Shown here in pieces: positions 8,113 to 64,000 of a stretch of DNA of 64,000 nucleotides; the first letter of the stretch is position 1; every line of letters starts with the position of its first letter. The notes beneath the pieces are model-generated. The model was not told where the DNA came from. It ran no database searches and saw only the letters and a program-made list of their open reading frames with translations. A program made the translations under genes and the position numbers. Source of the DNA: Histomonas meleagridis (Eukaryota; Parabasalia; Tritrichomonadida; Dientamoebidae); NCBI GenBank assembly GCA_020186115.1, contig WSYJ01000092.1:470001-534000 (forward strand). Reading direction: 5' to 3'.

Positions 8113-8335
8113 CTATTCTAAAAGTAATTTAACAATTTCATTGTGACCTCTCTTATTTGCAGATGTAATTGCTGTATAAAATAATTTAAATATTTCCCAA
8201 ATATTATTTTGAAATATAAAATTGTTAAAATAAAAATTATCTTTAGCATTAATATCAATTCCTTTTTGTTCAAGAAGTAATTTAACTATTTCTATATGAC
8301 CATATAAAGATGCCCAAACAAGTGCTGTATTTCAG
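8113..8335 (-). repeat. 3' end of ankyrin array of the 8-11 kb gene (two cores)
   Basis: Two ankyrin cores are readable on the minus strand: TALVWASLYGHIEIVKLLL (8250-8335) and the final TAITSANKRGHNEIVKLLLE followed by a stop at 8113-8115. Between them lies a 63-nt spacer that is in frame and without a stop here. Its sequence matches the spacers of the other ankyrin loci. The array continues on the other side of the pogo-like element, at 9872. Confidence 0.75.
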
Positions 8336-19933: not shown

Positions 19934-20800
19934 TTAATTCTGAAGTAATTTAATTATTTCTGTATGACCATATAAAGATGCCCAAACATGTGCTGTTTCA
20001 AATAATTTAAGTAATTTCTATGTATTATTTTGAAATATAAAATTATTCAAATAAATTTTATTTTTAGCATTAATTTTAATTCCTTCTTGTTCAAGAAGCA
20101 ATTTAACTATTTCTGTATAACCATTCCAAGATGCTTTCAGAAGTGCTGTATCGAATAATTCAAGTAATTTCCATGTATTATTTTAAAATATCAAATTATT
20201 CAAATAAATTTTATTTTTAGCATTAATTTTAATTCCTTTTTGTTCAAGAAGTAATTGAACTATTTCTGTATGACCATTTTCAGATGCAATCATAAGTGCT
20301 GTATTCAATAATTTAAAGAATTTCCAAATATTATTTTGAAATATAAAATTATTAAAATAAAAATTATCTTTAGCATTAATATCAATTTCTTCTTGTTCAA
20401 GAAGTAATTTAATTATTTCTGTATGACCATATCTAGATGCAAATATAAGTGCTGTATTCAATAATTTAAATAATTTTCAAATATTATTTTGAAATATAAA
20501 ATTATTCAAATAAATTTTATTTTTAGCATTAATTTTAATTCCTTTTTGTTCAAGAAGCAATTTGACTATTTCTTCATTACCATATTCAGATGCATATATA
20601 AGTGCTGTATCAAATAATTTAAATTATCATTGTTTTGAAACTTTGAAATATTATAATATTTATTAAATAAAACAAATAAATATTTTTAGCATTAATATCA
20701 ATTCCTTTTTGTTCAACAAGTAATTTAATGATTTCTAAATGTTTATTTTCAGATGCTAGAAACAAAGCTGTGTCAAAAAACTTAAATATTCACCAAATAC
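19934..20800 (-). repeat. Ankyrin array with 63-nt spacers (six cores)
   Basis: Continues the gene starting at 22056. Six ankyrin cores can be read on the minus strand, for example TALIFASRYGHTEIIKLLL and TALMIASENGHTEIVQLLL, ending KLLQN and a stop at 19934-19936. The spacers between cores are 73 nt (first internal), then 63, 63, 63 and 63 nt. The 63-nt spacers encode in frame a peptide like FQNNIWKLFKLFE, but three of four have a nonsense codon: TGA and TAG at the Trp position, TAA at the Gln position. The cores have no stop. Confidence 0.8.
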
Positions 20801-24057: not shown

Positions 24058-26085
24058 TTAAATTTGTTCAATAAATTTTTCTTCTTGAAAATCTTCAGCA
24101 AATGGATCTTCTTCAATATTTATGTTACTTATTCCAGTAGTAAATGTATTTGTCGTTTCGTTTTCATTTTGTTCTGATTTATCATTTTCATAAATTTCTT
24201 CTTTTTTATTTCGAATATGTTTCAAAAATATAATTAATAATGTGATAATAACTATTACTATAACAATTACACAAACTGAAATGATAATGATTGTTGTTTT
24301 ATTATCATTATTTTGATTATTATTATTATCATTTGAATAAAACATTGTAAAGAAATTGGAATAATAATTACAATAAGTCGAATATATAACAATTGTGTAA
24401 CTGTAATAAATAAATTCTGTTTCAATATATGAAAATGTCGAATTGTTTATATATAATGAAAATGATTTCGTTTTTGTTTCATAAATAGTTAATGAATGTG
24501 TAATTGATAATGTAATTGTTAATGTATATGAAAATGATAATGAAATATCACTTTGAAGTGATTCAGTAAATGTATTCGAATTAGAAAATGTATTCGATTG
24601 ACTAAATGAACATAATTCTGAGAATGATCTTGAATCTGACTGTGCATATGTATTCGAATTAGAAAATGTATTCGATTGACTAAATGAATGTGTTGGAAGT
24701 GGTTCGCATATTCCTTCTGTGAATTCGCTAACAACATCTAAATTTCCAAATTTACTTCCAACGTATGTTGGATATGTGATAACACTTGTAAAAACATTAT
24801 AAAATGCACCTTCGCCAATTTTTGGTTCTGAATCCCCATAATAATATATACATCGAAGTTTATTACAATTCCCAAATGCTGAACCTCCAATTTCTCTTAT
24901 TCCATAGCCAAGTGTTAATGTCGTTAAATTAGAACATAATGCAAATGCTGAACTTCCAATTGTTGTAACTGAATTTGGAATTGTAATGTTTTTGATTGAT
25001 GAACACAATGAAAATGCTGAACCTCCAATTTCTCTTATTCCATATCCAAGGATTAATATGATTAAATTAGAACATGATGAAAATGCTGAACCTCCAATTG
25101 TTGTAACTGAATTTGGAATTGTAATGTTTTTGATTGATGAACACAATGAAAATGCTGAACCTCCAATTTCTGTAACACTTTCTCCAATTATAATCGTAAC
25201 CAAATTAGAACATGACGAAAACACATAACTTCCAATATTTGATACTGAGTTACCAAAATTAACTGAAACAACTGAATGCCATCCTGAAAATGAACCACCT
25301 GGAATTGAATAAATATTTTCACTGATAATTATAAATTTTGTGCTATTTTGATACTGATCAATATCAATAAAATCATTTGAATTTGTGATTGAAAGTGTTG
25401 AATTATTTTCATAAAATATTTGATGAGAACTTATGAAAAATATAACAAAAATAAAAACATTTTTCTGTTTTTTCTTTCCATTTGTTTTCAATGTATATTT
25501 GGTCGTTAATATTTTCTGAACTAAAATTGTGTTTTTCTGATAAAATTTGATATATATAACCGAAAATGTCATTGAAAAAATGAAGGTTAAAATAAGTAAA
25601 ACATTGAAAATATTCGGTCCTTCTTCGTTGTCGTTTCGCATCATAAAAAAATGTGAAAATTCACGTTTTATAGAAGATATATCTTCATAACATTTGTTTA
25701 AAGCTTCCTCAGGTATGCCGTTATTGACAAATATCTTGATATCAAAGTCTTTTTTCAAAATGCTTGAAAAATATGTTCTTTGAAAATTTTGTTTGTTATT
25801 AAAATCATGATGTGTCATTGCTGTAGATTTGTTGTTAAGCCTTGAATTTAAGTATAAGTTTCTGATCAAAACTTTATAATAATTATTGTTAAATCTTTTA
25901 AATTTTTTGTTCATAATTTCATTATTTAGAACTTCTCTATCACATTGGTAAGTCATTCCTTCCTTGCTTTTGTCTTTTTGTATTTGTAATATTTCTTTTT
26001 GAATGATATAGGGTGTAATAAGCTTTATATCGTTTCTAAATCGCTTCTTCATGAGCAGAATGCTGAACAAAATAAAGATTCTCAT
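24058..26085 (-). CDS. BspA-like leucine-rich repeat membrane protein fused to an upstream ORF
   Basis: The open frame of 675 residues has two parts. Residues 1-208 form a separate-looking protein: a hydrophobic start (MRIFILFSILLM), a basic middle and a membrane segment (FNVLLILTFIFSMTFSVIYI). From about 208 it becomes a BspA-like protein: a hydrophobic signal-like stretch (VFIFVIFFISSHQ), six or so LRR_5 repeats of the type CSSIKNITIPNSVTTIGGSAF, a Ser/Thr-rich stalk, a membrane segment (IIIISVCVIVIVIVIITLL) and a cytoplasmic tail rich in Glu and Asn. Such proteins are candidate trichomonad surface adhesins. The second copy (26789-28066) shows the usual form starting at its own signal peptide. 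One T fewer in a T run near 25450 puts that ATG out of frame here. Confidence 0.8.
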   Translation of the reverse strand: MRIFILFSILLMKKRFRNDIKLITPYIIQKEILQIQKDKSKEGMTYQCDREVLNNEIMNKKFKRFNNNYYKVLIRNLYLNSRLNNKSTAMTHHDFNNKQNFQRTYFSSILKKDFDIKIFVNNGIPEEALNKCYEDISSIKREFSHFFMMRNDNEEGPNIFNVLLILTFIFSMTFSVIYIKFYQKNTILVQKILTTKYTLKTNGKKKQKNVFIFVIFFISSHQIFYENNSTLSITNSNDFIDIDQYQNSTKFIIISENIYSIPGGSFSGWHSVVSVNFGNSVSNIGSYVFSSCSNLVTIIIGESVTEIGGSAFSLCSSIKNITIPNSVTTIGGSAFSSCSNLIILILGYGIREIGGSAFSLCSSIKNITIPNSVTTIGSSAFALCSNLTTLTLGYGIREIGGSAFGNCNKLRCIYYYGDSEPKIGEGAFYNVFTSVITYPTYVGSKFGNLDVVSEFTEGICEPLPTHSFSQSNTFSNSNTYAQSDSRSFSELCSFSQSNTFSNSNTFTESLQSDISLSFSYTLTITLSITHSLTIYETKTKSFSLYINNSTFSYIETEFIYYSYTIVIYSTYCNYYSNFFTMFYSNDNNNNQNNDNKTTIIIISVCVIVIVIVIITLLIIFLKHIRNKKEEIYENDKSEQNENETTNTFTTGISNINIEEDPFAEDFQEEKFIEQI
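24340..25473 (-). repeat. Segmental duplication, BspA ectodomain cassette copy 1
   Basis: Matches 27041-28080 almost base for base. Compared with that copy, it has about 100 extra bases in the Ser-rich stalk, between direct repeats of GTATTCGAATTAGAAAATG. Outside these limits the two loci are unrelated, including the membrane segment and tail coding region. Confidence 0.9.
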
Positions 26086-26788: not shown

Positions 26789-28066
26789 TCATAGCCAATT
26801 GTCTTCATCTTCTTTCACAATATCTTCAACTAAACTATTTACTTCTTCGATTTGCTTTGTACTTGATGTTGTCGTGTCCTTAAATTGTAACTTTGAATCC
26901 GATTTTTCTTTCTTATTATTACTTTTCACTAAAAATATAACAATTCCAACAATGATCAAAACAAATGCAAATGACCCGCAAATAATTCCAATCAAAGCAT
27001 TTGTCGTAATTCCATTTGGTGAATTTTCATCGGAAGTATGAAACATTGTAAAGAAATTGGAATAATAATTATAATAAGTAGGATAAATAACAATCGTGTA
27101 ACTGTAATAAATAAATTCTGTTTCAATATATGAAAATGTCGAATTGTTTATATATAATGAAAATGATTTCGTTTTTGTTTCATAAATAGTTAATGAATGT
27201 GTAATTGATAATGTAATTGTTAATGTATATGAAAATGATAATGAAATATCACTTTGAAGTGATGCAGTAAATGTATTCGAATTAGAAAATGAATGTGTTG
27301 GAAGTGGTTCGCATGTTCCTTCTGTGTTGTCTTTATCAACATCTAAATTTCCAAATTTACTTCCAACGTATGTTGGATATGTGATAACACTTGTAAAAAC
27401 ATTATAAAATGCACCTTCGCCAATTTTTGGTTCTGAATCCCCATAATAATATATACATCGAAGTTTATTACAATTCCCAAATGCTGAACCTCCAATTTCT
27501 CTTATTCCATAGCCAAGTGTTAATGTCGTTAAATTAGAACATAATGCAAATGCTGAACTTCCAATTGTTGTAACTGAATTTGGAATTGTAATGTTTTTGA
27601 TTGATGAACACAATGAAAATGCTGAACCTCCAATTTCTCTTATTCCATATCCAAGGATTAATATGATTAAATTAGAACATGATGAAAATGCTGAACCTCC
27701 AATTGTTGTAACTGAATTTGGAATTGTAATGTTTTTGATTGATGAACACAATGAAAATGCTGAACCTCCAATTTCTGTAACACTTTCTCCAATTATAATC
27801 GTAACCAAATTAGAACATGACGAAAACACATAACTTCCAATATTTGATACTGAGTTACCAAAATTAACTGAAACAACTGAATGCCATCCTGAAAATGAAC
27901 CACCTGGAATTGAATAAATATTTTCACTGATAATTATAAATTTTGTGCTATTTTGATACTGATCAATATCAATAAAATCATTTGAATTTGTGATTGAAAG
28001 TGTTGAATTATTTTCATAAAATATTTGATGAGAACTTATGAAAAATATAACAAAAAATAAAAACAT
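26789..28066 (-). CDS. BspA-like leucine-rich repeat surface protein
   Basis: A 425-residue type I membrane protein. It starts with a signal peptide (MFLFFVIFFISSHQIF), then LRR_5/BspA repeats (about residues 60-225) with the consensus SSIKNITIPNSVTTIGGSAF, a short Ser/Thr stalk, a membrane segment (IGIICGSFAFVLIIVGIVIFLV, about 355-380) and an acidic cytoplasmic tail ending EDIVKEDEDNWL. The ectodomain is almost identical to that of the gene at 24058, while the membrane segment and tail are different. BspA-like proteins are expanded in trichomonads and thought to mediate adhesion to host cells or bacteria. The start overlaps the end of the ORF at 28014-28595 by about 50 bases in another frame. 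Confidence 0.88.
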   Translation of the reverse strand: MFLFFVIFFISSHQIFYENNSTLSITNSNDFIDIDQYQNSTKFIIISENIYSIPGGSFSGWHSVVSVNFGNSVSNIGSYVFSSCSNLVTIIIGESVTEIGGSAFSLCSSIKNITIPNSVTTIGGSAFSSCSNLIILILGYGIREIGGSAFSLCSSIKNITIPNSVTTIGSSAFALCSNLTTLTLGYGIREIGGSAFGNCNKLRCIYYYGDSEPKIGEGAFYNVFTSVITYPTYVGSKFGNLDVDKDNTEGTCEPLPTHSFSNSNTFTASLQSDISLSFSYTLTITLSITHSLTIYETKTKSFSLYINNSTFSYIETEFIYYSYTIVIYPTYYNYYSNFFTMFHTSDENSPNGITTNALIGIICGSFAFVLIIVGIVIFLVKSNNKKEKSDSKLQFKDTTTSSTKQIEEVNSLVEDIVKEDEDNWL

Positions 28067-32640: not shown

Positions 32641-33024
32641 ATGAATTTGAATTAGTATGCTCGGGCTAGAAGATTTTACTGTTAATTGAAAATCTAATCA
32701 ATTTCGAAGTTATTCCTTTTTGGGTGAAATCGAATTTTTGAAAAAATCATTTTGCATGAAAAATGATTTCAATAAATTTATGTAAACTAAACAAAATTGA
32801 GGGAGGAAAACGTTTTTTCTCATCAGAATTTTTATTGATTCAAAATATACTAATAAAGAAATAATTTCAATTATTCCTGTAAAAAAAGTATAAAAATGTA
32901 TAAAGGAAAATGTTATTCTCATGTTATTTTGATTTTATATTTTGAATTCGAGGCAGATAATTTCTGTTTTAATTTTCCATTGAAATGTAACATGTGCCAC
33001 TTTTCAAAAGGGACCAAATTGCAG
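32641..33024. other. Upstream region of the 33 kb ankyrin gene
   Basis: No separate gene seen. The open frame of the ankyrin gene extends upstream to an ATG at 32896, but the extra 43 residues look accidental. Confidence 0.4.
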
Positions 33025-34215
33025 ATGGGTGGTTCCCAAAGCAATACTACAAAAAATAACTATACAAAAAATATTGTAGCGTTGCAGTCTATCGAAAAAA
33101 ATATATTTGATTTAAATGAAACAAACATTGATGATGCAGCTGCTTCTTCCTTATATTACTTTTCTCAAGAATTTTCATATTCATTTAATTTTATAGTTTG
33201 TCGAATTATATATTCATATTTTATATCAAAAGGTTTATATAAATTATGTTTTGAATATTTAAAACAACTCAATTCTGATGAAAAAGAATTATTTAATATT
33301 GATTCAAATATTTTCGATGTTTTTATGCAATTACTTTTATCTCTACAAACACAAGAATCAAATTACCTAATAGAAAAAATAATAGAAAATGATTTAATTG
33401 ATCTCAAAACATACAGAAATAAATCAACCCCATATTTTGCTCATCGTATGACTTTAAAAGAAATGAACAACTTCGAATTCGATCAATTTGGTAAATACGT
33501 GTTGAAAAACATTAAGGATCTCAAAAAGGATAACTGGGCACTTCATAAAAAATTAATTGAAGAAGGTGTTAATCCTAATGAAACAGCAAAAATAATTCGA
33601 AATGATGACATCGAAAAACTTCAAAAAATCTCATCGCAAGCAAATTTTGATTATAATCAAAAAATTGAACCATCACTTTATGAAAGATGTGATTTTATTA
33701 ATCATAATAATGTTTCATTAATTGATTATGCAGCATTTTTCGGATCAATTAAATGTTTTAAACATTTAATGTTAAATGGTTCTGATATACGCAATGCAGT
33801 TAAATATGCAGTTGTAGGTGAAAGTTTCGAAATCATTCATATATGTGAACAAAATCATACATCTTTTGAAGATTCATATGAAACAGCAATTAAATTTCAT
33901 CGAAATGATATTTTTTATTATCTTTATGAAAACAAATTAGAAAAAATAAATAATTTAGAAGATTTAGGAGCAAAATGTGTTGAATATAATAATTATAAAA
34001 TTTTAAAATTTTTTGAGAAAGAAGGAATGAAAATAAATAAATCTTTGATCATTAAATCAATAGAAACAGGTAATATATTTATATTACAATATTTTCTCGA
34101 AAAATATCCAATAACAACAAACTTCTTAGAAATTTCAGCATTTTCAGGGAATAAAGAACTTTTAGATTTTCTTGTTAACAATAAATGTATCACTAGTTAT
34201 AAGGATGTTCATTAA
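33025..34215 (+). CDS. DUF3447-ankyrin protein with N-myristoylation-type start
   Basis: I place the start at the ATG at 33025 (MGGSQSNTTKNN), because Gly2 and Ser6 form an N-myristoylation signal. The frame is open from 32896. The helical N-terminal region is followed by DUF3447 (LHKKLIEEGVNPNETAKIIR, KIEPSLYERCDF, SLIDYAAFFGSIKCFKHL) and ankyrin-like helices up to LLDFLVNNKCITSYKD. The frame then closes in a 61-nt spacer at 34204 and eleven ankyrin cores follow to 35990, ending in a UBR-type zinc finger. If spacers are removed the product would be a membrane-anchored ankyrin adaptor with a degron-recognition-like finger. Confidence 0.85.
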   Translation: MGGSQSNTTKNNYTKNIVALQSIEKNIFDLNETNIDDAAASSLYYFSQEFSYSFNFIVCRIIYSYFISKGLYKLCFEYLKQLNSDEKELFNIDSNIFDVFMQLLLSLQTQESNYLIEKIIENDLIDLKTYRNKSTPYFAHRMTLKEMNNFEFDQFGKYVLKNIKDLKKDNWALHKKLIEEGVNPNETAKIIRNDDIEKLQKISSQANFDYNQKIEPSLYERCDFINHNNVSLIDYAAFFGSIKCFKHLMLNGSDIRNAVKYAVVGESFEIIHICEQNHTSFEDSYETAIKFHRNDIFYYLYENKLEKINNLEDLGAKCVEYNNYKILKFFEKEGMKINKSLIIKSIETGNIFILQYFLEKYPITTNFLEISAFSGNKELLDFLVNNKCITSYKDVH

Positions 34216-35995
34216 TTGCTTTTATATTTTCATTAAATTTTTTTAATGTTTTAAAACTATTTTTGAAACGGCATTGTTAAATGCTTCAATGAAAGGTAAT
34301 ACAGAAATAGTAAAATTGCTTCTTGGAAAGAAAGAAATTGATATTAATACAAAAGATATCAATTTGTTTTGTTTAATATATATTTGATTATTTTAATGAT
34401 TTAAAATATTATTTAGTTTTTGTTTAAGTTATTTAAAACAGCATTAATGCTTGCATCTGAAAATGGAAATACAGAAATAGTTCAATTACTTCTTGAACAA
34501 AAAGGAATTGATATTAATAAAAAAGACATCAATTTATTTTGTTTAATGTGTATTTGATTAATTTGATATTTCAAAATATTATTTAGTTTTTGTTTAAGTT
34601 ATTTAAAACAGCATTAATGCTTGCATCTGAAAATGGAAATACAGAAATAGTTAAATTACTTCTTGAACAAAAAGACATTGATATCAATGTTAAAGGTGTT
34701 TTTATATATTAAATAAATTTTATTTTAATAGTTTTTAATTTCATAATAATATTTGGAAATTATTCAATTTATTTAACTCAGCTTTATTAATTGCAATAGA
34801 AAACGGTAATACTAAAATCGTAAAATTACTTCTTGAACAAGAAGGAATTAGTATGGATACAAATGTTAATTTATTTTATTTAATATTCATTTTATTAATT
34901 ATATATTTAATGTGAATATTTGATAATTATTCAAAATATTTGAAACACCACTTATTTCGGCTACGAAAAGAGGGAATGTTAAAGTCGTTAAATTACTTCT
35001 TAAACAAAAAGAAACAAATGTTAATGAAAAAGATGATAATAAATATCATTTATGGATTATTATAATGATTTTATGTTTTGCAAAAATATTTGGAGTTTAT
35101 TTAAATTAGTACATACAGCGCTCATTATTGCTGTCGCAAATGACTATATTGATATAGTAAAATCACTTCTCAAACATGAGAATATTGATGTCAATTATAA
35201 AGATGAAGTTTATTTCAATGATTTATGATTTTTATATTATATATGGAATTTATTTAAACATTTTCGAACAGCTCTAAAGTTTGCAATTGAAAATAGTAAC
35301 ATTAAAATAATAAAATTACTATTGGAATACAAAGAAATTGATATTGATATTGACGTTGAAGATTATATATATTATTTAATGTTTTTTTTATTAATTGAAA
35401 ATTTCATTTTATTATTTCGAAATTATTTAAATCATTTGAAACAACTGTTATATTAGCATCATTAAATGGTTATATTGAAATAGTAAAATTACTTATTGAG
35501 CAAGAAGAAATTGACAGCGATACCAAAAAAATTAAAACATTTGATTTAAAATTTATTTTAATATTATTTAATTTCATTATAATTTCCGGAAATTATTTAA
35601 TTAATTTGAAATAGCATTATTATTTGCATCATTAAATGATCAAATAAAACTTGTTAAATTACTTATTAAGCAAGAAAAAGTTAATTTCAATGCTAACACT
35701 TATTTTATTTATTTTATTTTTATTTTAATAATTTTGTGTTTCAGAATAATATTTACAAATTATTTAAATTATTTTTTACATCACTTATATTAGCATCAAA
35801 AGAAGGTCATGAAAAAATAGTTAAATTTCTTCTTAAACAAAAAGGAATTGATATTAATGCTAGAGATGTTTTTATATAATGTATAAATTTTATTTTAATA
35901 GTATTTAATTTCATAATAATATTTGGAAATTATTTATGTCATTTAATACAGCACTTACACAAGCATTAAAAAATAGCAACAACGGAATTGTTAAA
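34204..35995 (+). repeat. Ankyrin array, eleven cores separated by phased 61-80 nt spacers
   Basis: Cores start near 34264, 34436, 34606, 34776, 34951, 35115, 35271, 35440, 35611, 35779 and 35946. Examples are TALLNASMKGNTEIVKLLL, TALIIAVANDYIDIVKSLL and TSLILASKEGHEKIVKFLL. They differ much from each other, yet none contains a stop or frameshift. Spacers measured from the codon after K-D to the T-A-L codon are 61, then mostly 80 or 77, once 63 nt. They contain stops in the incoming frame in most cases and usually change frame. A conserved block close to GGAAATTATTTAAATTATTT lies just before each core. Confidence 0.85.
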
Positions 35996-36364
35996 TTATT
36001 AATTAAACAAGAAGGAATCGAAATAAGTCGACAAGATATGAAATATTTAAACAAATTTTACAAAGAAGATGAAAAAGAGTTAAAAAATATTTCACAATCA
36101 AATGATACAAATATTAATTGTATTCCAGGACATTGTACATTTGAACAAACAGGTTATAAATATGTTATGCATAGAACTTTTTTCTATTGTCGTACATGTT
36201 CAATGGACCAATCAAAATCTAGTATATGCGAAGAATGTGCAAAGATATGTCATAAAGGTCATGATGTGATAGAAGCAACACATGTAACGCCATGTTTCTG
36301 TGATTGCGGAGCAGGCCATGGAATTTACCCTTGCAAGTTAATGAAAAAAATGAAAAAAAAGTGA
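35936..36364 (+). CDS. Last ankyrin core plus UBR-type zinc finger
   Basis: Open for 142 residues: an ankyrin core (TALTQALKNSNNGIVKLLI), a charged linker, then a UBR box with its Cys/His pattern: GHCTFEQTG, YCRTCSMDQSK, ICEECAKICHKGHD, CFCDCGAGHGIYPC. UBR boxes bind N-terminal degrons in N-recognin ubiquitin ligases. Combination with ankyrin repeats suggests a substrate adaptor, by inference. The frame ends at 36364 after an A-rich run, but coding-like sequence continues (KILRQIFDDDYHCINGQ to about 36504, then EYVLKKLFLFKVFPLIVPEF to 36679) through A8 and T8 runs, so the real C-terminus may be longer. Confidence 0.7.
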   Translation: MSFNTALTQALKNSNNGIVKLLIKQEGIEISRQDMKYLNKFYKEDEKELKNISQSNDTNINCIPGHCTFEQTGYKYVMHRTFFYCRTCSMDQSKSSICEECAKICHKGHDVIEATHVTPCFCDCGAGHGIYPCKLMKKMKKK

Positions 36365-39072: not shown

Positions 39073-42000
39073 ATGGATTCATCTTTGTTGTTATTACCAG
39101 GAGCAACAATTTTCAAAAATGCAACACCAGTGGATTGCATTAGGCAATCTTTAATCTTGTTGTCAAATAGTAAAATCGACAACAATACAATTAAAAATTA
39201 TATTCCAAATTTACTTCCTTTTTTGTCGGAAAAAACAGATAATATGTTTTTGGAGGAAATACTTCTAGTTTTAAGACAATGTTTCGAAAGAGATATTCCA
39301 GAAATCAAGGATTTATTAATTCAATTCATTGAAAAAGCAGAAGAATCAAAAGCTAATTTTCTTGCTGCTATTGTTTCATTGAATGCTGTTTTGAAAGTTA
39401 ATAAAGATTTCGAAATCACTGGTCCAATTAAAGTATTACTTGATAAAGTTGATGATGTTTTAGCTACCCAATTCCATGCATTCAAGCTCCATAAGAAGTA
39501 TCATTTTAACAACATTGAATTAACGCAAACAGAAGCACTTTCAGTAATCTTATGTATGATTCAAAACACTCCAATTACAACAGAAAGTGTATTAATTGCA
39601 TGTCTTTTCTTATGGCATCTTGATGCTAGTCTTCCTTCTTCCATTGATTTCACAGAAATAATTCAAAAAGTTGATCCACAATTATTCCAAAACTTATTTA
39701 ATTCACAGCCAAGAGAACGTTTTCTCTTTTTATGTTCTGATCCAAAAGTTCCATCTATTATTTGTCCATCTATTGCTGACAAATTAAATGATTTTTCAGA
39801 TATCAACTTTTTCTTAAAAGTTCTTCCAATGCCACAACTTCATATTCCATTAGATGTAATTACAAACAGCATTACTAACATTAGTGATTGTTCAATTTTA
39901 ACAGCAAGATTAAGACATCCGCTTTTACAAAAACTTAGTTTTTGGAATCATGTTCTAGAAATCTTAACTGAAGAACATATTGGAAATGTATCGCAATGTT
40001 TTCTTGGTAATATTACAGACGTAGCTGAATCATTATCAGAATTACTTTTAAACGTCCGACACATAACGGTCCCCATATGTCACTTTTTTGACAAAGTACT
40101 CAATTCCAGCACTGAAATCAAAACACAATTTTCTAAGTCACAACTTTTATCATATGTCTTATCTAATTTAACAGAACCACCACCATATGAATTTTGGAAT
40201 TTAATTAATTCATTAGATGCCTTTCAAATCTTAGAAGATATCTTTAAAGGCAAACATCCAATTGCATTAATTGGAATGACTGAATATTTATTATCATCTA
40301 ATCAAACTATAATTCTTCGTAATATACAACAACTTAAATTACCTGAATTAACAACACAAACCAAACTTAAATTATTAAAATATATTAAATCATTAGACTT
40401 TACAAAAGAGAAATTCTTTAGTAATTTACCCAAAGATGAAGAATTAGTATTATTTATAGCATATTCATTAATTTCTGTAATAAGTATTCAATATAATAAA
40501 GAAAACTCTATAATATGTAATATAAATGAAGATAATGGATTACCATTATTAATATTACAAATAATTGAACTTCAAACATTTTATAAAGATAATGAATTAA
40601 TGGAATTATTTTTAGTCAATGATAAAGTTCATATGGATTTATTACAACCAAAATTAAATACTATTCATGAAACTATTGATGAATTTGATGAATTTTGTAT
40701 TTGTAAATTATTTGATTTATTATTTAAATTAGAAATTTCTATTTCAAATTTAATCATTTTATTATTAACAAGTACAATATGGACATTACAACTCTTTACT
40801 TTATCCAAAGAAATTAATGAACAATTTATACGTTCGATCTGTTATTTAAATGAATTTTTACAAAACACAGAATCAAACAATCGAATTACTGTACAAATTC
40901 AATCATTCTTTAATTATATCTCTAAAGATATTTTAGAATATTTATATAATAATTCTGATTTAATTAAACCTTATTCATTAAGTTCGAAATATTTATTTAA
41001 TAATAATAAAGAAGAAGAAATATTCACTGATTTCTTAAACAAGAATCTTAACATAGAATGTATCAAATTTTATGTTAAATCATTTGTAATACCACCCAAA
41101 TGTAAAATTAATTCTCCATCACAAATTAAATCATTTTATACAAACTCAATTACAAAAGAGAATTGGAATGATGCGTCAATCATTGCAATATTCTTAACAG
41201 CATGTAATGAATTAGAATTAATTAATCCAACATATCAAGAAACATTACAAATATTATTAAATGTTAATGTTGATTTTAATAAGCAAATACCGAATTACAT
41301 AATCGAATTAATTAAATATCAACTTAAAGATGAAAATACTCAAATGAAAGCAATCACAACATTCTTTAATGGTATACAATCATTTCCAATCATTGATCTT
41401 AAATCAATCATATTAAACTTTTCTAAATATTTCGAAGTTAAACCAGAAATATTATTAAAAGCACTTTCGACAGTATTAACACAAAACGTCGATAAACAAA
41501 TACCAATTATATTACGACCAGAACCATTACCTATTGAAGACTCACCTGAAACAACATATAAATTTGTAGAATTATTAATCGATTCATTAATTGAACATAA
41601 GTCACAAAAATTATTTGTTTATTTAAGATCGATATTAATATCATATTCATTCTTATATAATAAAATACCAAACGAAAAGAAAATTAATTTGTTCGAAACA
41701 ATTTATTCCGTTTTAAGTAATTTCCATGAAAAACAACAAAATTTAGATTTAATACAATCAGCTATATTACTTTTAGAAGTGATTTTAACAACTCCACAAA
41801 ATACTGATGACTTCTTTTCATGGACTACTTCAAATATTGAGTCATTTAATATATCACAAATATATTTCACATTAAAAATTTATCAACAATTCTTTAATAA
41901 GTCGAATTTACTTTCTGCAATTGTATTTTCTTATTTGAACAAAAATAATACATTTAATAAAATATCAAAAACAATTTCGAAGTTATATTCAATAGATAAA

Positions 42001-44574
42001 GACCTTTCTCCAGAAGTTGTCTCTATTTATAATAATTTAATTCAACAAATTCTTTCATTTGCTGCTAACTTAAATGATATCGATGTAATTGATATTGAAG
42101 AATGTATGAAGATCGATAAACCATTCAATGAGTTCGTATCATTCGGCTTTTTACGCAATTCAATTTCCAATAGCTTCGTTCAAATTTCAAAGAATTCAAA
42201 GTCCTATCGTAACATGTGTAATACACTTTTATCACCATCACAAAATATTCGTATATCAATACCAGACTTTTTACAAAAGTTATATGAGATGTCTAAACCA
42301 ACAGATGTAACATTATATATAAATAAAATCCCATCGAATATATCACAAGATAAATTTAAAGAATTAAACATTTATCAACAATCAATAATATTACATAAAC
42401 AAATAATACGACCATCAATCACATATAAAGTAATGCGAATATTACTTAAGCAACCGAATTGGGTTAAGATTTGTTTATTACAAAACTTACCATATTTATT
42501 ATTACCAGAACATTATATTAAACTTATTGAAGTTATTACAGAAATGAACAAACTTAAAGATGAAAAAATTGATTTAACAAAATCATATAAAGAGTATATA
42601 ATGAATTCATATTGTCAAGATGAATATGTTAAATGTATTATTAATATAATAAATCAAAACTCATTACCAAAACAAATTATATCGAAATGTATTGATACAC
42701 TTTCGACAATGTTAACATTCGAACCATCAATGAGTCATTGTATTGATTATGTTACTCCATTACTTAAAGATACATCGAATGATAATTTGTTTTTCGTATA
42801 TTTAATTCTAATGGTATTAGTTAAAACAGGTACATCATCCAACAAAATCATAAATCTTTTATCAAAGGACTTCTTTATGATATTCTTACAACCAAAATGG
42901 AGAAACAATGTACAAAACATGGAACTAATTGTAAACTTAATCAACGCATTACCGAAGAAGCCATTAAAGTTCCAAACAAGAATTACACAATTTATATCAT
43001 TCTTATACATGCATAAAATGTATAAATCTGCAAATAGTATAAGTTATTATTTAACGGATAAACAAAAATATAAAATGAAATTCGTAGTAGAATCAGTTTA
43101 CGAATATTTACGTAAAAACTCAAACGAAAATCAAATCGATTTAGTGAACTTATGTAGAGTTTATCCTTATTTGAATATCGACAAAAAGAAATTGTTACAA
43201 AAACTTGATTACTTATTAACTAATTATTCTCCTTTGAACCTCGAAATGATTGGCGCAATAGTTAATAACTTAATGCCCGATGAAAAGTGTTTTGAAATAG
43301 ATGAAAATGATAAAAACGAAACTAATCCGCCATTACCAATACATTATTCAATATACAACAAGTTCCCAGAATTTTGGAATTTGATGACAAAACATAGATT
43401 AACGTTCACTATGATGGCACGATCGTTAAGATTTTCTGCTTTCATTTCTTCCCCGTTAAGTTTCATATTTAGGTTCCCTTTAGTGTTCGATACACAATTG
43501 AAAATTAACTTTTTCAATCATTTACAAAAGAAAAAACTTGAAAAACAAGGCACTCAAAAACTCGAAATTCAAAACGCTAACGTTCTCGAGAACTCAATCA
43601 AGGAAATGTTAGTTGAAAAATCGCCAAGTGATTGGGCGGAGAACGTTACGGTGACCGTTTTGGACTCAGAAAACGATTGGTATACTGATATTGTAAAGGA
43701 ATTATTCGATCCTAAAAATGGTATATTCAGATTAACACCAAACTTAAGATGTCTTGATGTTAATCCTGAACGTTGTTCAGAAGAAGATTTAATGAAATAT
43801 AAATTTGCAGGTTTCTTCCTTGCTCTTTCATTAAAGCAAAACAAGAAACTGAACATAAGTTTGGCGCCTTCAATATTTAAGCATCTTTTAAGAACAAAGA
43901 TGAATCTTCATGATCTTGAAATAATTGATTTAACTGTTGCAAGATCATATCAAAGAATTCTTAATGAACCAGCAGAAGGACTTGGCTTATTCTTCACAAT
44001 TGGAGTTGAACGTGAAGGAAAGCCAGTTGAAATAGAATTAATTCCAAATGGTTCAAAGATCCCAGTAACCGAAGAAAACAAGAAGACATATATCGAAGAA
44101 ATGCTTAAGTTCCATTTCACTAATTACGCACAGAAACAAATCGAAGCGTTCAAAGAAGGTTTCTATTCGCTGTTGAACGTTAAGGAAATTCAATTGTTTA
44201 CAGCGGATGAACTTGAAATGCTTCTTTGCGGCGTTCCTAAGATAGAAGTTGAAGATTTAAGGAAGAATTGCATAATCTCATTGCCTTATTCATTAGAACA
44301 TCCTGTCGTAAAGAGATTTTTCGCAATGTTGAAGAAATGGGATCAAATCACATTAGGAAAATTACTTTGGTTCATCACCGGATCTTCACAACTGCCAATT
44401 GGAGGATTCGAAACATTAAAGAAATACGGCCAAGTAATACATATCGAAAAAGGATCAAATCCAAATTCACCACCAATGTCACATACTTGTTTCTCGATTT
44501 TGGATTTGCCGGAATATCAGTCATTGGATTATATGGAACAAATGTTTTTCGTGGCATTGGATAATTGCATTTAA
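39073..44574 (+). CDS. HECT-type E3 ubiquitin ligase
   Basis: A protein of about 1833 residues from the ATG at 39073 (MDSSLLLLPGATIF). The first 1450 residues are long runs of amphipathic helices without zinc fingers, consistent with an armadillo/HEAT-like scaffold for substrates. The C-terminal 350 residues are a HECT domain: PNLRCLDVNPERCSEEDLM, FKEGFYSLLN, ELEMLLCGVP and QLPIGGFETL. It ends with the catalytic loop SHTCFSILDLPEY, whose Cys (about residue 1806) takes ubiquitin from an E2 as a thioester. The last residues (ALDNCI) complete the C-lobe. The domain is intact, so the enzyme should be active. The architecture resembles large UPL/HUWE1-type ligases. Confidence 0.92.
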   Translation: MDSSLLLLPGATIFKNATPVDCIRQSLILLSNSKIDNNTIKNYIPNLLPFLSEKTDNMFLEEILLVLRQCFERDIPEIKDLLIQFIEKAEESKANFLAAIVSLNAVLKVNKDFEITGPIKVLLDKVDDVLATQFHAFKLHKKYHFNNIELTQTEALSVILCMIQNTPITTESVLIACLFLWHLDASLPSSIDFTEIIQKVDPQLFQNLFNSQPRERFLFLCSDPKVPSIICPSIADKLNDFSDINFFLKVLPMPQLHIPLDVITNSITNISDCSILTARLRHPLLQKLSFWNHVLEILTEEHIGNVSQCFLGNITDVAESLSELLLNVRHITVPICHFFDKVLNSSTEIKTQFSKSQLLSYVLSNLTEPPPYEFWNLINSLDAFQILEDIFKGKHPIALIGMTEYLLSSNQTIILRNIQQLKLPELTTQTKLKLLKYIKSLDFTKEKFFSNLPKDEELVLFIAYSLISVISIQYNKENSIICNINEDNGLPLLILQIIELQTFYKDNELMELFLVNDKVHMDLLQPKLNTIHETIDEFDEFCICKLFDLLFKLEISISNLIILLLTSTIWTLQLFTLSKEINEQFIRSICYLNEFLQNTESNNRITVQIQSFFNYISKDILEYLYNNSDLIKPYSLSSKYLFNNNKEEEIFTDFLNKNLNIECIKFYVKSFVIPPKCKINSPSQIKSFYTNSITKENWNDASIIAIFLTACNELELINPTYQETLQILLNVNVDFNKQIPNYIIELIKYQLKDENTQMKAITTFFNGIQSFPIIDLKSIILNFSKYFEVKPEILLKALSTVLTQNVDKQIPIILRPEPLPIEDSPETTYKFVELLIDSLIEHKSQKLFVYLRSILISYSFLYNKIPNEKKINLFETIYSVLSNFHEKQQNLDLIQSAILLLEVILTTPQNTDDFFSWTTSNIESFNISQIYFTLKIYQQFFNKSNLLSAIVFSYLNKNNTFNKISKTISKLYSIDKDLSPEVVSIYNNLIQQILSFAANLNDIDVIDIEECMKIDKPFNEFVSFGFLRNSISNSFVQISKNSKSYRNMCNTLLSPSQNIRISIPDFLQKLYEMSKPTDVTLYINKIPSNISQDKFKELNIYQQSIILHKQIIRPSITYKVMRILLKQPNWVKICLLQNLPYLLLPEHYIKLIEVITEMNKLKDEKIDLTKSYKEYIMNSYCQDEYVKCIINIINQNSLPKQIISKCIDTLSTMLTFEPSMSHCIDYVTPLLKDTSNDNLFFVYLILMVLVKTGTSSNKIINLLSKDFFMIFLQPKWRNNVQNMELIVNLINALPKKPLKFQTRITQFISFLYMHKMYKSANSISYYLTDKQKYKMKFVVESVYEYLRKNSNENQIDLVNLCRVYPYLNIDKKKLLQKLDYLLTNYSPLNLEMIGAIVNNLMPDEKCFEIDENDKNETNPPLPIHYSIYNKFPEFWNLMTKHRLTFTMMARSLRFSAFISSPLSFIFRFPLVFDTQLKINFFNHLQKKKLEKQGTQKLEIQNANVLENSIKEMLVEKSPSDWAENVTVTVLDSENDWYTDIVKELFDPKNGIFRLTPNLRCLDVNPERCSEEDLMKYKFAGFFLALSLKQNKKLNISLAPSIFKHLLRTKMNLHDLEIIDLTVARSYQRILNEPAEGLGLFFTIGVEREGKPVEIELIPNGSKIPVTEENKKTYIEEMLKFHFTNYAQKQIEAFKEGFYSLLNVKEIQLFTADELEMLLCGVPKIEVEDLRKNCIISLPYSLEHPVVKRFFAMLKKWDQITLGKLLWFITGSSQLPIGGFETLKKYGQVIHIEKGSNPNSPPMSHTCFSILDLPEYQSLDYMEQMFFVALDNCI

Positions 44575-48365: not shown

Positions 48366-50273
48366 ATGGGTGCTGATTCTTCTTCTGCCGGAAGCAAGAT
48401 ATCTTATGCATACTTAGATGAAATTCCAAGCAATTGGAAAGAAGAAGCCAATATTGCGGGTTCTATAGATTTTTTATCATCAACAATATCAAACACTCTG
48501 ACTGTTGATCGCTTCAAGAAACTAACATTGTTTAGAGCTGCTAGATGTGACAAACTACTTCAAATTGATTTAGTTGATTTACCAAATCTTATTGCTGCAG
48601 ATTTTTCATTATCATCAAACTTGAAAACAATTAACATAAACAAATGTCCCAAGATACGTGCTCTTGATGTTTCTTTTTGTTTTGAACTTTTGTCCATTAA
48701 TGGTTTATGTAAAAATCTTGAATATCTCTCATGCCCAAACACTAAACTTACACAAATTCCAGAAATGCCATCTCTTTTATACTTTGATTGCTCTTTTTCG
48801 GAAAATTTAAACATTGATCCAAGAAAGTTTCCAAATCTTGAGCTTTTATCTGTTGGCACGTATCAAGGAACGGAATTTTCCTTATCACAAATTACCAGTT
48901 TCAAATCACTTAGAATCTTTGAAGCAAATCATAATGAAATCATTTTGGATTCAATTTCAAAAGGAACAAACGTTCAATTTTTAAATTTCACATCTTGTTT
49001 GGTTCGTGGGGACATGGAACTACTCAAAAACTTTTGTTGCATTGGTTGTAATAACATTCAACCTTTGTTCCCAGCCGACATTAAACCGTTTAATTACCCA
49101 TCGGCGCAGTCACTTTTGTATGGCCCATGGGGTGTCCCAGATGTCGATCAAAAACCTCCACTTTTATCTGAAAGTCCAACGTTTGATCCCCCACAAAACA
49201 TTAATGACAATGAAGTTAGAATTGGTATTTATGGAGCAATATTAGGCTCTGCAGTCATGGACATGATTGGTCTCGGTACTGAATTTGTGTCAAGTGATCT
49301 TGCAAAATTATACTTAATTAATCCGTTTTCAATTACTTGGACACATCCAAGAGTTACAATGCATACTGGTAGCTTTGTAAGGGGAACTTCTACAGATGAT
49401 ACATCTCAAAATATTTTAATTATGAGATCATTGTTCCAAGCAAATAAAAGTGGTGCTGAAAATTTTGTTGAAGATGGTGTTACTAAATTCAAAGCCGGAC
49501 TTGTGAAAGTTGATCTTCATGATTTTGCTGAAAGATTAATTGATTGGAAAAATAATGGTCATTCAGAACGTAAACATGGAGGAGGTCTTGGAATGGGCAA
49601 AACAGTTAAATCCGTTTTATCGTCTGACAACTTCCTTGACAACCCAATCGAGGCTTCAAAGAAAGTTTGGGAAGAAAGCGGGAAAAGGGTTGCATCAAAT
49701 GGGGCCGTTATGAGAACCGCCGCCGTGGGGTGCCTCGCTTTTTGGGATGAGGCGACCGTTATATCTGTTGCCAAGTTGATGGCAAAAGTGACGCACTATG
49801 ACCCGAGGTGTGTTTTCTCTGCTGTCTGTATTTCTTTGCTAGTTGCTCGAACTTTGCAAGTAAGAGCAGGCTTAAAGGAGTCTGTTGATATCGAAAAGAC
49901 AATCAACGATTCAATTGCAAATGTTGAAGGTGCAGATGAGTTTAGGGAAGAAATCCTTGATTACTCATCCAAAGATAAAATACAGGACTTAGACCTCGGT
50001 AATGCAGCGAATATGGGATATACAATGAAAACATTTGGAGCCGCAATTTGGGCATTGATACATGCGCAAAGTTTCCAAGACGGACTCATACAGATCGTAA
50101 GAGAAGGAGGCGACGCGGATACGAATGGAGCAGCTGCGGGTGCTCTTCTTGGCGCTAAATTCGGAGTTTATGCAATTCCAAAGACATTCTTCAATCAGAT
50201 GTTTGACTTTTCTTGGCTCAATCGCGAAATAGTTTCGTTCATATCTCTGATGGGTCGTTTCTTATCCATCTAA
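48366..50273 (+). CDS. LRR plus ADP-ribosylglycohydrolase fusion, N-myristoylation signal
   Basis: 635 residues. It starts MGADSSSAGSK, an N-myristoylation signal. Residues 40-240 are leucine-rich repeats (NLIAADFSLSSNLKTININK and similar). From about 280 comes an ADP-ribosylglycohydrolase (ARH/DraG) domain: IGIYGAILGSAVMDMIG, the metal-binding TDDT motif in GTSTDDTSQ, SNGAVMRTAAVGC, and the second metal site GGDADTNGAAAGALLGA. These enzymes remove ADP-ribose from proteins. The metal ligands appear intact. The arrangement suggests a membrane-tethered enzyme whose LRR part selects partners. G+C is locally higher in the ARH part (49600-50170). Confidence 0.88.
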   Translation: MGADSSSAGSKISYAYLDEIPSNWKEEANIAGSIDFLSSTISNTLTVDRFKKLTLFRAARCDKLLQIDLVDLPNLIAADFSLSSNLKTININKCPKIRALDVSFCFELLSINGLCKNLEYLSCPNTKLTQIPEMPSLLYFDCSFSENLNIDPRKFPNLELLSVGTYQGTEFSLSQITSFKSLRIFEANHNEIILDSISKGTNVQFLNFTSCLVRGDMELLKNFCCIGCNNIQPLFPADIKPFNYPSAQSLLYGPWGVPDVDQKPPLLSESPTFDPPQNINDNEVRIGIYGAILGSAVMDMIGLGTEFVSSDLAKLYLINPFSITWTHPRVTMHTGSFVRGTSTDDTSQNILIMRSLFQANKSGAENFVEDGVTKFKAGLVKVDLHDFAERLIDWKNNGHSERKHGGGLGMGKTVKSVLSSDNFLDNPIEASKKVWEESGKRVASNGAVMRTAAVGCLAFWDEATVISVAKLMAKVTHYDPRCVFSAVCISLLVARTLQVRAGLKESVDIEKTINDSIANVEGADEFREEILDYSSKDKIQDLDLGNAANMGYTMKTFGAAIWALIHAQSFQDGLIQIVREGGDADTNGAAAGALLGAKFGVYAIPKTFFNQMFDFSWLNREIVSFISLMGRFLSI

Positions 50274-51393: not shown

Positions 51394-52746
51394 ATGCAAA
51401 CAGACGAAAACATTATTGGAGACTATGTATTATTCGAAATAATTGGGAGGGGAAGCTTTGCCACAGTTTGGCTTGGTTCCCATCGAAAAACTGGTTGTCC
51501 AATTGCGATAAAAAAAATTAATAAAAGAGATTTGGATCAAAATACAACCTTACAATCAGTTCAACGAGAAATAATGATTCTAAAAATGACAGACCACCTA
51601 TTTATTTCGAAATTATTTGAAGTGATTGAAAATGAAGAATCTATCTTTATTTTTATGGAATATGCAGAAGAAGGTACATTACTTGAATACGTTAATACAA
51701 ATGGACCAATGAAAGAAAACCGAGCCAAAGAAGTTTTTCTTGAACTTATTTTAGCTCTTGATTATCTTCATAATCAAAAGCGTATTATCCACCGTGATTT
51801 AAAGGCCGAGAACATTCTTCTTGACCGCAATTTTAACATTCGTATTATTGATTTTGGCCTTTCCAATATCATCAATCAAAATTCTCCACTTACGACCGTC
51901 TGTGGATCTCCCTCCTATGTAGCACCTGAGATGTTATTAGATCAACCGTACACCGAAAAGTCTGATATATGGAGTGCAGGTGTTTTACTATTTGCCATTG
52001 TTGCATCTTTTTTACCATATGAAGATTCCAGTATCCCCAAACTTATCAACAAGATTCTTCATGACGAGCCCAACTTTCCCACACATTTTTCGAGTGATTT
52101 AAAAGATCTTTTACAAAATATGTTAACCAAAGATCCCAACAAACGTATCACTCTTAAAGGCATTATGCAACACCCATGGATGACGCGTGATTCTACCGGG
52201 TACCCGATCACGTACAACTTCTCCTTCATCCAGCGCTACCAATACCATAACGATCCCAACACCATCGTTCTGAACGATAGCGTCGTTGAGCAAATGACGA
52301 ATCTTCAGTATGACTGTAGTAATCTCGAGCGTATGCTACGTAATCGCGAAGTTAATCCCATCACGATTGCGTATAACATATTGCTACGTGATGAAATGAC
52401 TAACGAAATGGAAGGACTTAAATATGAACTAATAACTCGAATAAAGGTTAAATCTTTGCCGCAGTTGAGCTACGCGAAAAGTCACGCATTCGTTACAAAT
52501 GGTAACCAAATGGAACAATGCACAAGACCACGTGTCGCGAGCGCTTGCGAAAGTAGTAAAAAAGTAGAAATACTAGTGCCAAGAGTCATCAGATTGGACG
52601 CAAGAAAGCCGCGTTCAGACTCTTTGCCAATAATTAATAGAGTGCCCTCGAGAAGTAGCTTGCAGCTGATGAATGTGGTGGTGCCAAAGTTGCAAAATAT
52701 GAAAAATAAGGCAAAAATTAGATCGCTAAGATCGGATGTGTTTTGA
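51394..52746 (+). CDS. CAMK/AMPK-type serine/threonine kinase
   Basis: 450 residues. A complete kinase domain occupies residues 10-265: GRGSFATVWLG, catalytic Lys40 in IAIKK, HRDLKAENILL, IDFGLSN, the activation-loop CGSPSYVAPEML typical of SNF1/AMPK and MARK relatives, and DIWSAGVLLFAI. The C-terminal 185 residues are basic and Ser/Arg-rich near the end, with no UBA or KA1 domain recognised. The whole catalytic set is intact. Substrates are unknown. The 3' half of the gene is richer in CG dinucleotides than its neighbours. Confidence 0.9.
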   Translation: MQTDENIIGDYVLFEIIGRGSFATVWLGSHRKTGCPIAIKKINKRDLDQNTTLQSVQREIMILKMTDHLFISKLFEVIENEESIFIFMEYAEEGTLLEYVNTNGPMKENRAKEVFLELILALDYLHNQKRIIHRDLKAENILLDRNFNIRIIDFGLSNIINQNSPLTTVCGSPSYVAPEMLLDQPYTEKSDIWSAGVLLFAIVASFLPYEDSSIPKLINKILHDEPNFPTHFSSDLKDLLQNMLTKDPNKRITLKGIMQHPWMTRDSTGYPITYNFSFIQRYQYHNDPNTIVLNDSVVEQMTNLQYDCSNLERMLRNREVNPITIAYNILLRDEMTNEMEGLKYELITRIKVKSLPQLSYAKSHAFVTNGNQMEQCTRPRVASACESSKKVEILVPRVIRLDARKPRSDSLPIINRVPSRSSLQLMNVVVPKLQNMKNKAKIRSLRSDVF

Positions 52747-57025: not shown

Positions 57026-57400
57026 CTATTGAAACTAATAAAGCAGAAAACGAAACACTTATTTATCTCGGGAAAAAATGTTTGGAACCTAATAAGTATA
57101 AAACTTTATCATATTTAGAAAAGGAAGGTCTGAAAATTGAGGCCATTATTGAAGATGTTGCTTTAAATGGCAATACTTTTTGATGAAATATGTCGAAAAT
57201 ATAAAAATTCCAAATGCAATTTTAACATATTCAGTTAAATCAGGAAATGTAGAAATAGTAAAATTACTTTAAGATAAAGAATTGATGTTAATGAAAAAAC
57301 TATTCATTTGAATAATTTGGAATATGTTTTAATAATTTAAAATATGTTTTAATATTTTGAAACAGCACTTCATATAGCGAAATTACTTACAGATAAAAAA
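57026..57400 (+). pseudogene. Remnant of a DUF3447-ankyrin gene
   Basis: Coding traces read TNKAENETLIYLGKKCLEPN, SYLEKEGLKIEAIIEDVAL and, after stops, ETALHIAKLLTDKK. They correspond to the C-terminal DUF3447 part and the first ankyrin core. Frameshifts and stops are present inside the core-like parts as well, unlike the intact loci. The end is cut by the small inverted-repeat element at 57400. Confidence 0.6.
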
Positions 57401-62112: not shown

Positions 62113-63159
62113 ATGACAACAAAATTATTGCAAGATTTAGAATCTCTTGAAGAAATTATTTTTAATTTAAGAGAAGACAACATTTTCGAATCTATTTATT
62201 CAGTCATTCTCCTAATAAAAAATAATGATATATCTCCTTATTCAAACTTTATTATCAGTAGATTGATATATTCATCATTTCTTTCACAAGAAAAAGATTT
62301 TAGTTTATATATTAATTTCATGAAACAAATTGAAATCAAAGAAAATGAACATAATGAATTGATTAATAGGTTTACAGATTTTCTTCTTGGTATAGATTCA
62401 CAAGAATCATATTTTATTCTAGAAAAAATGATTGAAATGAATTTAATATCATCAAAATTAGTTGAGGGCATAAACATATTTTATTTCGCACATCATTTTC
62501 CAAATAAATCAGTAGATGATTTACAAATTCAATATGATTTATCATCACATAAATATCATAAAATAAGTTATGAAGAACTTTCACGAAATGATTGGGAACT
62601 TCATAAACAATATATTAAAGAAGGAGTTAATCCAAACGAAATTGCCAAAATAATTCGAAATGATGAAATCGAAAAACTTCAAGAAATATCATCACAAGAA
62701 AACTTTGATTTTAATCAAAAAATTGAGCCATCACTTTATGAAAGATGTTCATTTGTTAATAAAGAAAATGTTACATTAATTGATTATGCAGCATTTTTTG
62801 GATCAATTAAATGTTTTAAGCATTTACTTATTAATGGTGTAAATGTATATAATACAGGAAAATATGCAGTTGCAGGTGGAAATCTGGAGATTATTCATTT
62901 GTGTGAACAAAATCATTCATCTTTTAAAGGATCTATAAAAGCATCAATTAAGCTCCATAAAAATGACATATTTAAATATTTATATGAAAATAAAATTGGA
63001 GAAATCAAATATTCTGTTGAACTTTTAAAAATACTTTTATCTAATAGATTTATTAATTTTAAAATATTTAACTTTTTACTTGAACAAAACGTAATTAATT
63101 TTAATGATATTTCTAATGATGTTTATCGATTATTTATAAAATTATTTATAATAATTTGA
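62113..63159 (+). CDS. DUF3447-ankyrin protein, N-terminal open part
   Basis: 348 residues starting MTTKLLQDLESLEE. Helical N-terminal region (SNFIISRLIYSSFLSQ), then DUF3447: LHKQYIKEGVNPNEIAKIIR, KIEPSLYERCSFV, LIDYAAFFGSIKCFKHLL, and the ankyrin-like EIIHLCEQNHSSF. The frame closes in the first spacer after NVINFNDISND, and ankyrin cores follow to the end of the window. It is the best-preserved copy of the family here, with no frame break before the array. Confidence 0.87.
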   Translation: MTTKLLQDLESLEEIIFNLREDNIFESIYSVILLIKNNDISPYSNFIISRLIYSSFLSQEKDFSLYINFMKQIEIKENEHNELINRFTDFLLGIDSQESYFILEKMIEMNLISSKLVEGINIFYFAHHFPNKSVDDLQIQYDLSSHKYHKISYEELSRNDWELHKQYIKEGVNPNEIAKIIRNDEIEKLQEISSQENFDFNQKIEPSLYERCSFVNKENVTLIDYAAFFGSIKCFKHLLINGVNVYNTGKYAVAGGNLEIIHLCEQNHSSFKGSIKASIKLHKNDIFKYLYENKIGEIKYSVELLKILLSNRFINFKIFNFLLEQNVINFNDISNDVYRLFIKLFIII

Positions 63160-64000
63160 TATTATAAAGTAATATTCGGAAATTATTTAAAATATTTGTA
63201 ACAGCACTTATTTTGGCATCATCAAATGGTCATATAGAAATAGTTAAATTACTTCTTGAACAAGAAGGAATTGATATTAATGCTAAAGATATTTATTTGT
63301 TTTATTTAAAATTTATTTTAATAATTTCATATTTCAAAATAATATTTAGAAATTGTTTCAATCATTTAAAACAGCACTTATGTTTGCATCTGAATATGGT
63401 CATACAGAAATAGTTAAATTACTTCTTGAACAAGAAGGAATTGATATTAATGCTAAAAATATTAATTTGTTTTGTTTAAAATTTATTTTAATAATTTTAT
63501 ATTTCAAAATAATATTTGGAAATTATTTAAATTATTTTGGACAGCACTTATGAAAGCATCTTCAAATGGTCATACAGAAATAGTTAAATTACTTCTTGAA
63601 CAAAAAGGAATTGAAATTAATGCTAAAGATGTTTATTTGTCTCATTTAATATTTATTTTAATAATTTTATATTTTAAAATAATATTTGGAAATTATTTAA
63701 ATTATTTGAAACAGCACTTATTTATGCATCTTCAAATGGTCATACAGAAATCGTTCAGTTACTCCTTAAACAAGAAGGAATTGATATTAATAAAGATAAA
63801 ATTTATATGTTTTATTTAATATTATATAAAAATATATGAAAATTTTTTAAGTTATTTAAAACTGCATTTATGTATGCATCTGAAAAAGGTCATACAAAAA
63901 TAGTTAAATTACTTCTTAAACAAAAAGGAATTGATATTAATGCTAAAAATATTTATTTGTTTTATTTTGGGTTTGTTTTAATAATTTCATATTTTAAAAT
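63120..64000 (+). repeat. Ankyrin array with 80/63-nt spacers, cut by window end
   Basis: Five cores are visible: TALILASSNGHIEIVKLLL (63201), TALMFASEYGHTEIVKLLL (63371), TALMKASSNGHTEIVKLLL (63541), TALIYASSNGHTEIVQLLL (63711) and TAFMYASEKGHTKIVKLLL (63861), all without stops. The first four spacers each measure 80 nt from the residue after the Asp to the T-A-L codon, so they change frame by two each time. The fifth is 63 nt, in frame, with TGA where most 63-nt copies have TGG. The array runs out of the window. Confidence 0.85.

Follow-up and report, generated by a model that had tools for sequence, protein, structure and literature searches.

The parabasalian parasite of poultry Histomonas meleagridis is the source of the stretch analysed here (the window), which comprises 64,000 nucleotides (nt) of contig WSYJ01000092.1, and the subject is an ankyrin-repeat gene in it whose repeats are interrupted, between codons, by AT-rich elements of 17 nt. 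A previous reading of this DNA from the letters alone (the sequence-only reading) had described eleven open ankyrin cores separated by spacers of 61-80 nt, followed by a gene end with a UBR finger. The array is confirmed; its spacers number 11 and their lengths run to 83 nt (61, 80, 80, 80, 80, 80, 63, 83, 80, 77 and 80 nt, in order, over 34207-35947). Its cores are open, and the open reading frame (ORF) at the end does contain the finger. The parts of the array, all on the plus strand, are as follows.

32896..34215, +, N-terminal ORF of 439 codons, with similarity to DUF3447 (E 2.3e-9) and weak similarity to ankyrin; continues into spacer 1
34207..34267, +, spacer 1, 61 nt; three elements, three codons and one odd base
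34268..36037, +, ankyrin cores (T-A-L...K-D) with the spacers between them; first core 34268-34357, last core from 35948
34358..34437, +, spacer 2, 80 nt; elements at 34358-34374, 34378-34394, 34398-34414 and 34418-34434
34375-34377, 34395-34397, 34415-34417 and 34435-34437, +, single codons of spacer 2, one after each element
34528..34607, +, spacer 3, 80 nt; plan as spacer 2
34698..34777, +, spacer 4, 80 nt; plan as spacer 2
34865..34944, +, spacer 5, 80 nt; plan as spacer 2
35035..35114, +, spacer 6, 80 nt; plan as spacer 2
35205..35267, +, spacer 7, 63 nt; codon-element-codon-element-codon-element-codon, without the element after D
35358..35440, +, spacer 8, 83 nt; four elements and five codons
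35531..35610, +, spacer 9, 80 nt; plan as spacer 2
35701..35777, +, spacer 10, 77 nt; four elements and four codons with a core taken as one codon shorter
35868..35947, +, spacer 11, 80 nt; plan as spacer 2
35936..36364, +, C-terminal ORF with the last core and the UBR zinc finger (zf-UBR, E 1e-7); its ATG lies inside spacer 11, and no element was seen in it

The true unit of interruption is the 17-nt AT-rich element and not the whole spacer. Seven of the 11 window spacers measure 80 nt, or 4x17 + 4x3; one of 63 nt equals 3x17 + 4x3 and one of 83 nt equals 4x17 + 5x3. Nine thus fit directly, the 77-nt spacer fits once its core is shortened by one codon, and spacer 1 is one base away from 3x17 + 3x3. 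The earlier idea that each spacer is excised or bypassed as a single block finds no support in that form: a typical 80-nt spacer consists of four elements with single, selected codons in between. When the window array was parsed with free gaps, elements ran together (8 of 31 gaps were 17, 34 or 51 nt), and this parse was not used as evidence.

The same plan was found throughout a wider sample from the H. meleagridis assembly (43,276,120 bases in 121 contigs). We analysed 35 sources, a first set of 21 (20 fetched loci and the window) and a further set of 14 loci; they were picked by similarity to the window or by 153-nt spacing, so regular arrays are over-represented. Because the plan recurs in all 35, an assembly artefact is unlikely. 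Among 191 core-to-core distances below 230 nt in the first set, 156 were 170 nt, 16 were 153 nt and four were 190 nt. When the 156 units of 170 nt were aligned without gaps, short, sharply bounded variable triplets appeared at columns 108-110, 128-130 and 168-170 and a conserved GGA at 148-150, with four 17-nt stretches separating the aligned triplets. Taken one after another from the final D of the core onwards, the triplets encode x-x-G-x, with T-A-L next; this is the ankyrin hairpin D-x-x-G-x-T, laid out as D-[17]-x-[17]-x-[17]-G-[17]-x-T, and it appears before the T-A-L helix only when the elements are omitted from the reading. With the elements omitted, G occupies the fourth codon of the hairpin in 136 of 156 units of the first set and in 55 of 71 from the further loci. 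A unit of 170 nt is thus 34 codons (102 nt) plus 4x17.

Departures from 170 nt mostly follow the same arithmetic. Units of 153 nt mostly lack exactly the element after D (16 of 16 in the first set), all five 190-nt units examined accommodate one extra element and one extra codon, and all five 173-nt units accommodate a two-codon island. A unit parser permitting 17-nt elements, whole codons and single odd bases resolved 277 of 301 units into 17-nt elements and at most three successive codons (four in one element-free unit), or 287 of 301 if elements read as codon runs are counted too; elements were scored by known profiles, so that very diverged units score as misfits. In the same 277 units, one of them the element-free unit, element length is uniform, as it is in ultra-short introns of 15-17 nt. 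Diverged elements, when pooled (n = 138, 38 from the window), mostly start with a purine followed by TTT and end in ATTT.

Several individual arrays depart from this plan. The clearest exception to the fixed length is at L011, where element 4 measures 8 nt in two successive 161-nt units. L038 holds one element-free unit of 102 nt, a plain 34-codon repeat, within an element-bearing array. At the 3' ends of the arrays of L031 and L033, element-bearing units are followed by a last repeat with the contiguous hairpin D-N-D-G-F-S. In the window itself, 57240-57400 is a decayed ankyrin piece with a core stop and a 20-nt period (17 plus a codon) in its hairpin, which looks like a duplicated element-plus-codon block.

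The isolated triplets behave like codons. No stop was found at any of the four positions in the 156 units, where 5.8, 8.6, 0.9 and 15.3 would be expected (about 31), nor in 71 units of 170 nt from the further loci, where the expectations are 2.9, 3.9, 0.9 and 5.2 (about 13). These expectations were computed from the base composition of alignment columns, each treated independently of the rest; since related units also lack independence, the counts here and below represent strong contrasts rather than exact probabilities. The triplets are by no means invariant, as they take 14, 22, 10 and 16 distinct forms in the 156 units, and a register one base upstream contains stops in 128, 76, 17 and 112 of them. 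The residues encoded are K, N, E, D, Y and others, followed mostly by G and finally by K, N, E, Q and others; similar residues occur in 32 hairpins of these sequences that lack elements. The x positions of the D-x-x-G-x-T hairpin belong to the ankyrin binding surface, and three of the isolated codons vary like binding-surface residues, with the remaining one mostly Gly.

The cores are constrained as well. No stop occurs in 4,680 core codons of the first set (58.3 expected) and only one in the 71 further units (32.7 expected), whereas a pseudogene array would show stops at the neutral rate. This bears out the suggestion that the cores are under selection at the protein level. Rough pairwise ratios of nonsynonymous to synonymous change (dN/dS), proposed earlier as a check and now obtained from 4,000 sampled pairs, were 0.64 for conserved core codons, 1.57 for four variable core codons and 2.46 for the three variable islands, the higher values being rough on account of many changes per codon; neutral cores were not seen. 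The ratio for the island G, 2.27, contradicts simple conservation there but refers to a single codon. Divergence between units is 0.126 per site in the elements and 0.165 at synonymous sites of conserved codons, and the variable codons change faster than the elements adjoining them. Since element divergence lies just under the synonymous value, selection on the codons has been at work with the elements already present. Divergence among units within loci is as large as between loci, which points to much exchange among arrays.

Such units are abundant in the genome, far in excess of chance. A 403-base piece of the window had 193 matches. A 24-nt motif around element 4 had 4,255 matches (up to two mismatches), compared with one for a reversed-pattern control; the junction of D and element 1 had 3,719 and a three-element junction 368 (up to three mismatches each), with none for either control. 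There are thus about 3,700-4,300 copies, and nuclear 17-nt elements should total on the order of 16,000, a figure that is arithmetic from the junction counts with four or three elements per unit. Element-free hairpins near the consensus number 22; the search misses more diverged ones, so the ratio holds for near copies. Outside this genome, the 24-nt spacer motif had one exact match in each of two viral contigs and one bacterial contig, which we regard as chance. In 20 of 27 array rows (37 rows in all, 10 incompletely retrieved ones being left out and one locus being entered twice), the first recognised core is preceded within 700 nt by the end of an open stretch of 100 codons or more.

Two further arrays lie in the window.

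19942..20736, -, second array; chiefly 153-nt units with three elements each
63130..64000, +, third array; reaches the window end and goes on in locus L012

Lone ankyrin cores occur outside the arrays on the minus strand, at 58355-58520 (followed by spacer-like sequence) and 8240-8328. The contig, 929,723 bases long, carries HECT, kinase and other genes next to the array. Uninterrupted ORFs of the window encode a HECT ubiquitin ligase (39073-44574), an ADP-ribosylglycohydrolase with weak leucine-rich repeat similarity (48366-50273) and a protein kinase (51394-52746); no elements of this type were seen in these three. The ORFs at 24058-26085 (-) and 26789-28066 (-) have a common 138-nt tandem repeat unit, probably from a recent duplication.

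A whole ankyrin protein can be made from such a gene only if the ribosome's template is free of the elements or the ribosome skips them. We consider it very probable that removal or skipping of the elements precedes the finished protein; that the removal occurs at the RNA level has about an even chance. The data show a 17-nt element of nearly fixed length between codons, after each of D, x, x and G of the hairpin, as well as selection on cores and isolated codons and a genome-wide spread. In the explanation proposed, these are coding ankyrin-repeat genes, and base-precise removal or skipping would yield 34-codon ankyrin repeats. With less certainty, removal would take place in RNA, the elements being ultra-short non-canonical introns that are recognised chiefly by length and AT-rich ends. 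Duplication of 170-nt units would have spread them, as would, within 190-nt units, duplication of 20-nt blocks made up of an element and a codon. Removal from RNA is ranked first because the phylum has 23-nt introns (PMC12316389, in the part available), because introns of 16-17 nt in mikrocytids and 15-16 nt in heterotrich ciliates exist (PMC10245619, likewise) and because the exact 17-nt losses resemble intron loss. As a whole, the statement that these are coding genes whose elements are removed or skipped, likely as ultra-short non-canonical introns, seems to us evenly poised between right and wrong.

Several observations weigh against this explanation. A GT-AG pair is found at the ends of none of 852 elements, any equivalent register included (31 start with GT, none ends in AG). 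One-codon exons, three in a row, would be hard for a spliceosome. Besides, 24 of the 301 units have no clean fit to the parser; the misfits include the two 8-nt elements in one array, partial losses and several 18-nt elements, some of which sit in A or T runs where read errors are possible. Some units are decaying: cores contain stops in L043 and L045 and are shifted in L030 and L046. Skips of 17 nt in other genes of the window showed no excess (6 of 242), although the codon-usage scan behind this count says little, because it missed the known elements too (1 of 20 skips within arrays was 17 nt).

One alternative treats the 80-nt spacer as a single ordinary intron, or as sequence translated either directly or with one frameshift; it draws on the intron-like length of the spacer and on the 36 three-element units of 153 nt, in which 51 nt of elements keep the frame and 19 are open straight through. 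The other 17 of these contain straight-through stops, whereas among all 36 the isolated codons have a stop in none and the cores in one, in agreement with the earlier view that spacers are not translated as they stand. Furthermore, in-frame reading of element 3 meets a stop in 183 of 213 distinct units, and all four isolated codons are stop-free yet lie 20 nt apart, so that no single frame covers them. On the island codons and the stops this alternative was rejected, and we regard it as extremely improbable. A translational bypass, in which the elements stay in the mRNA and the ribosome jumps each 17 nt, would agree with the precise codon borders. Most repeats would need four such jumps, however, and the preceding codon equals the last triplet of the element in only 10 of 852 cases, 34 different codons preceding elements; unmatched take-off and landing codons are compatible with bypass of the yeast mitochondrial type, according to the part of PMC5009743 available. 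An RNA hairpin across the spacer was also considered, but seven window spacers folded whole showed no unusual structure (z -1.30 to +1.35). Bypass thus appears unlikely.

That the arrays are unexpressed, as relics or satellite-like repeats homogenised by gene conversion, would account for the conventional reading of the window gene stopping in the first spacer, for the equal divergence within and between loci and for the decayed units. It does not explain why core stops fall so far below expectation in both sets, why the isolated codons are stop-free or why variable codons outpace neighbouring elements. Element divergence near the synonymous value means that the codon changes are little older than the elements, and the near-absence of stops since insertion disfavours dead arrays; we therefore consider this quite unlikely. 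The arrays might instead be silent cassettes giving codons to expressed, element-free genes by gene conversion, as element-free ankyrin genes exist and exchange among arrays is extensive. Near-consensus element-free hairpins are few, however (22, compared with 3,719 with element 1), donation would bring elements along and donors should gather stops, which leaves this possibility very improbable. DNA-level excision before transcription, in some cells or copies, is very improbable as well. In its favour, genomic units show exact 17-nt losses, and the sequences eliminated by ciliates are also short AT-rich inserts; against it, TA stands at both borders in just 150 of 852 elements, the assembly retains elements throughout the arrays read, and we know of no second nucleus in H. 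meleagridis.

Should the elements indeed be removed or skipped, the expression of nuclear genes would include a step that acts at thousands of sites, leaves exons of a single codon and depends on no recognised border signals; the rules known for introns, bypass and DNA elimination do not cover such a step. Present gene predictions may truncate several hundred genes, a rough figure that assumes some 4,000 units, with about 4-25 to an array. The published assembly of a virulent strain (43,414,808 bases in 187 contigs) was annotated with 11,119 genes and 573 introns, never more than one intron per gene, and the word "ankyrin" is absent from the available main text of that paper (PMC8529796). One ankyrin-containing protein is listed in the available part of PMC10063853 and could not be linked to these arrays. 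A literature search confined to open-licence papers found no account of such 17-nt elements. With roughly even odds, some 16,000 elements may be removed base-precisely by length counting, free of any known splice, bypass or excision signal, to give a large, fast-diversifying family of ankyrin binding proteins. The proposal is directly testable, in part with RNA and proteome data that exist according to the literature.

The known systems each share part of this pattern. Internal eliminated sequences of ciliates are numerous, lie in genes, are bounded by TA and are cut from DNA for a second nucleus; the H. meleagridis elements, as noted above, are mostly not TA-bounded at both ends. Mitochondrial mRNAs of Magnusiomyces capitatus likewise carry many short inserts in coding sequence, 81 of them, which are bypassed (PMC5009743), but these are mitochondrial, whereas the array studied here stands beside HECT and kinase genes on a contig of nearly a megabase. 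Nonconventional introns of euglenids and diplonemids resemble the elements in having no conserved canonical borders and no established mechanism of removal; in those introns a stable RNA structure joins the ends, according to the available part of PMC6221363, in contrast to the seven spacers folded here. Trichomonas vaginalis, of the same phylum, has very short introns of 23-25 nt; all 63 combine GT/AG with an extended 5' motif and with a 3' motif of 12 nt that is fused to an ACTAA branch site (PMC12316389, as available). None of these features is shared by the 17-nt elements, and the base tables of all four show no ACTAA at the 3' end. A separate genome-wide search for Trichomonas-type intron motifs, which covered short spacings, had no strict matches and eight looser ones (reversed pattern, 98) and says little. 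There is also a likeness to the ultra-short spliceosomal introns of PMC10245619, where, in the part available, 224 introns in 179 genes are reported to be conserved in sequence and to be spliced in RNA. Unlike these, the H. meleagridis elements are known here from genomic sequence, bear no GT-AG pair, number in the thousands, have so far been found only in ankyrin hairpins and would leave one-codon exons. What they have in common with the mikrocytid introns, of 16 or 17 nt, is a near-fixed length.
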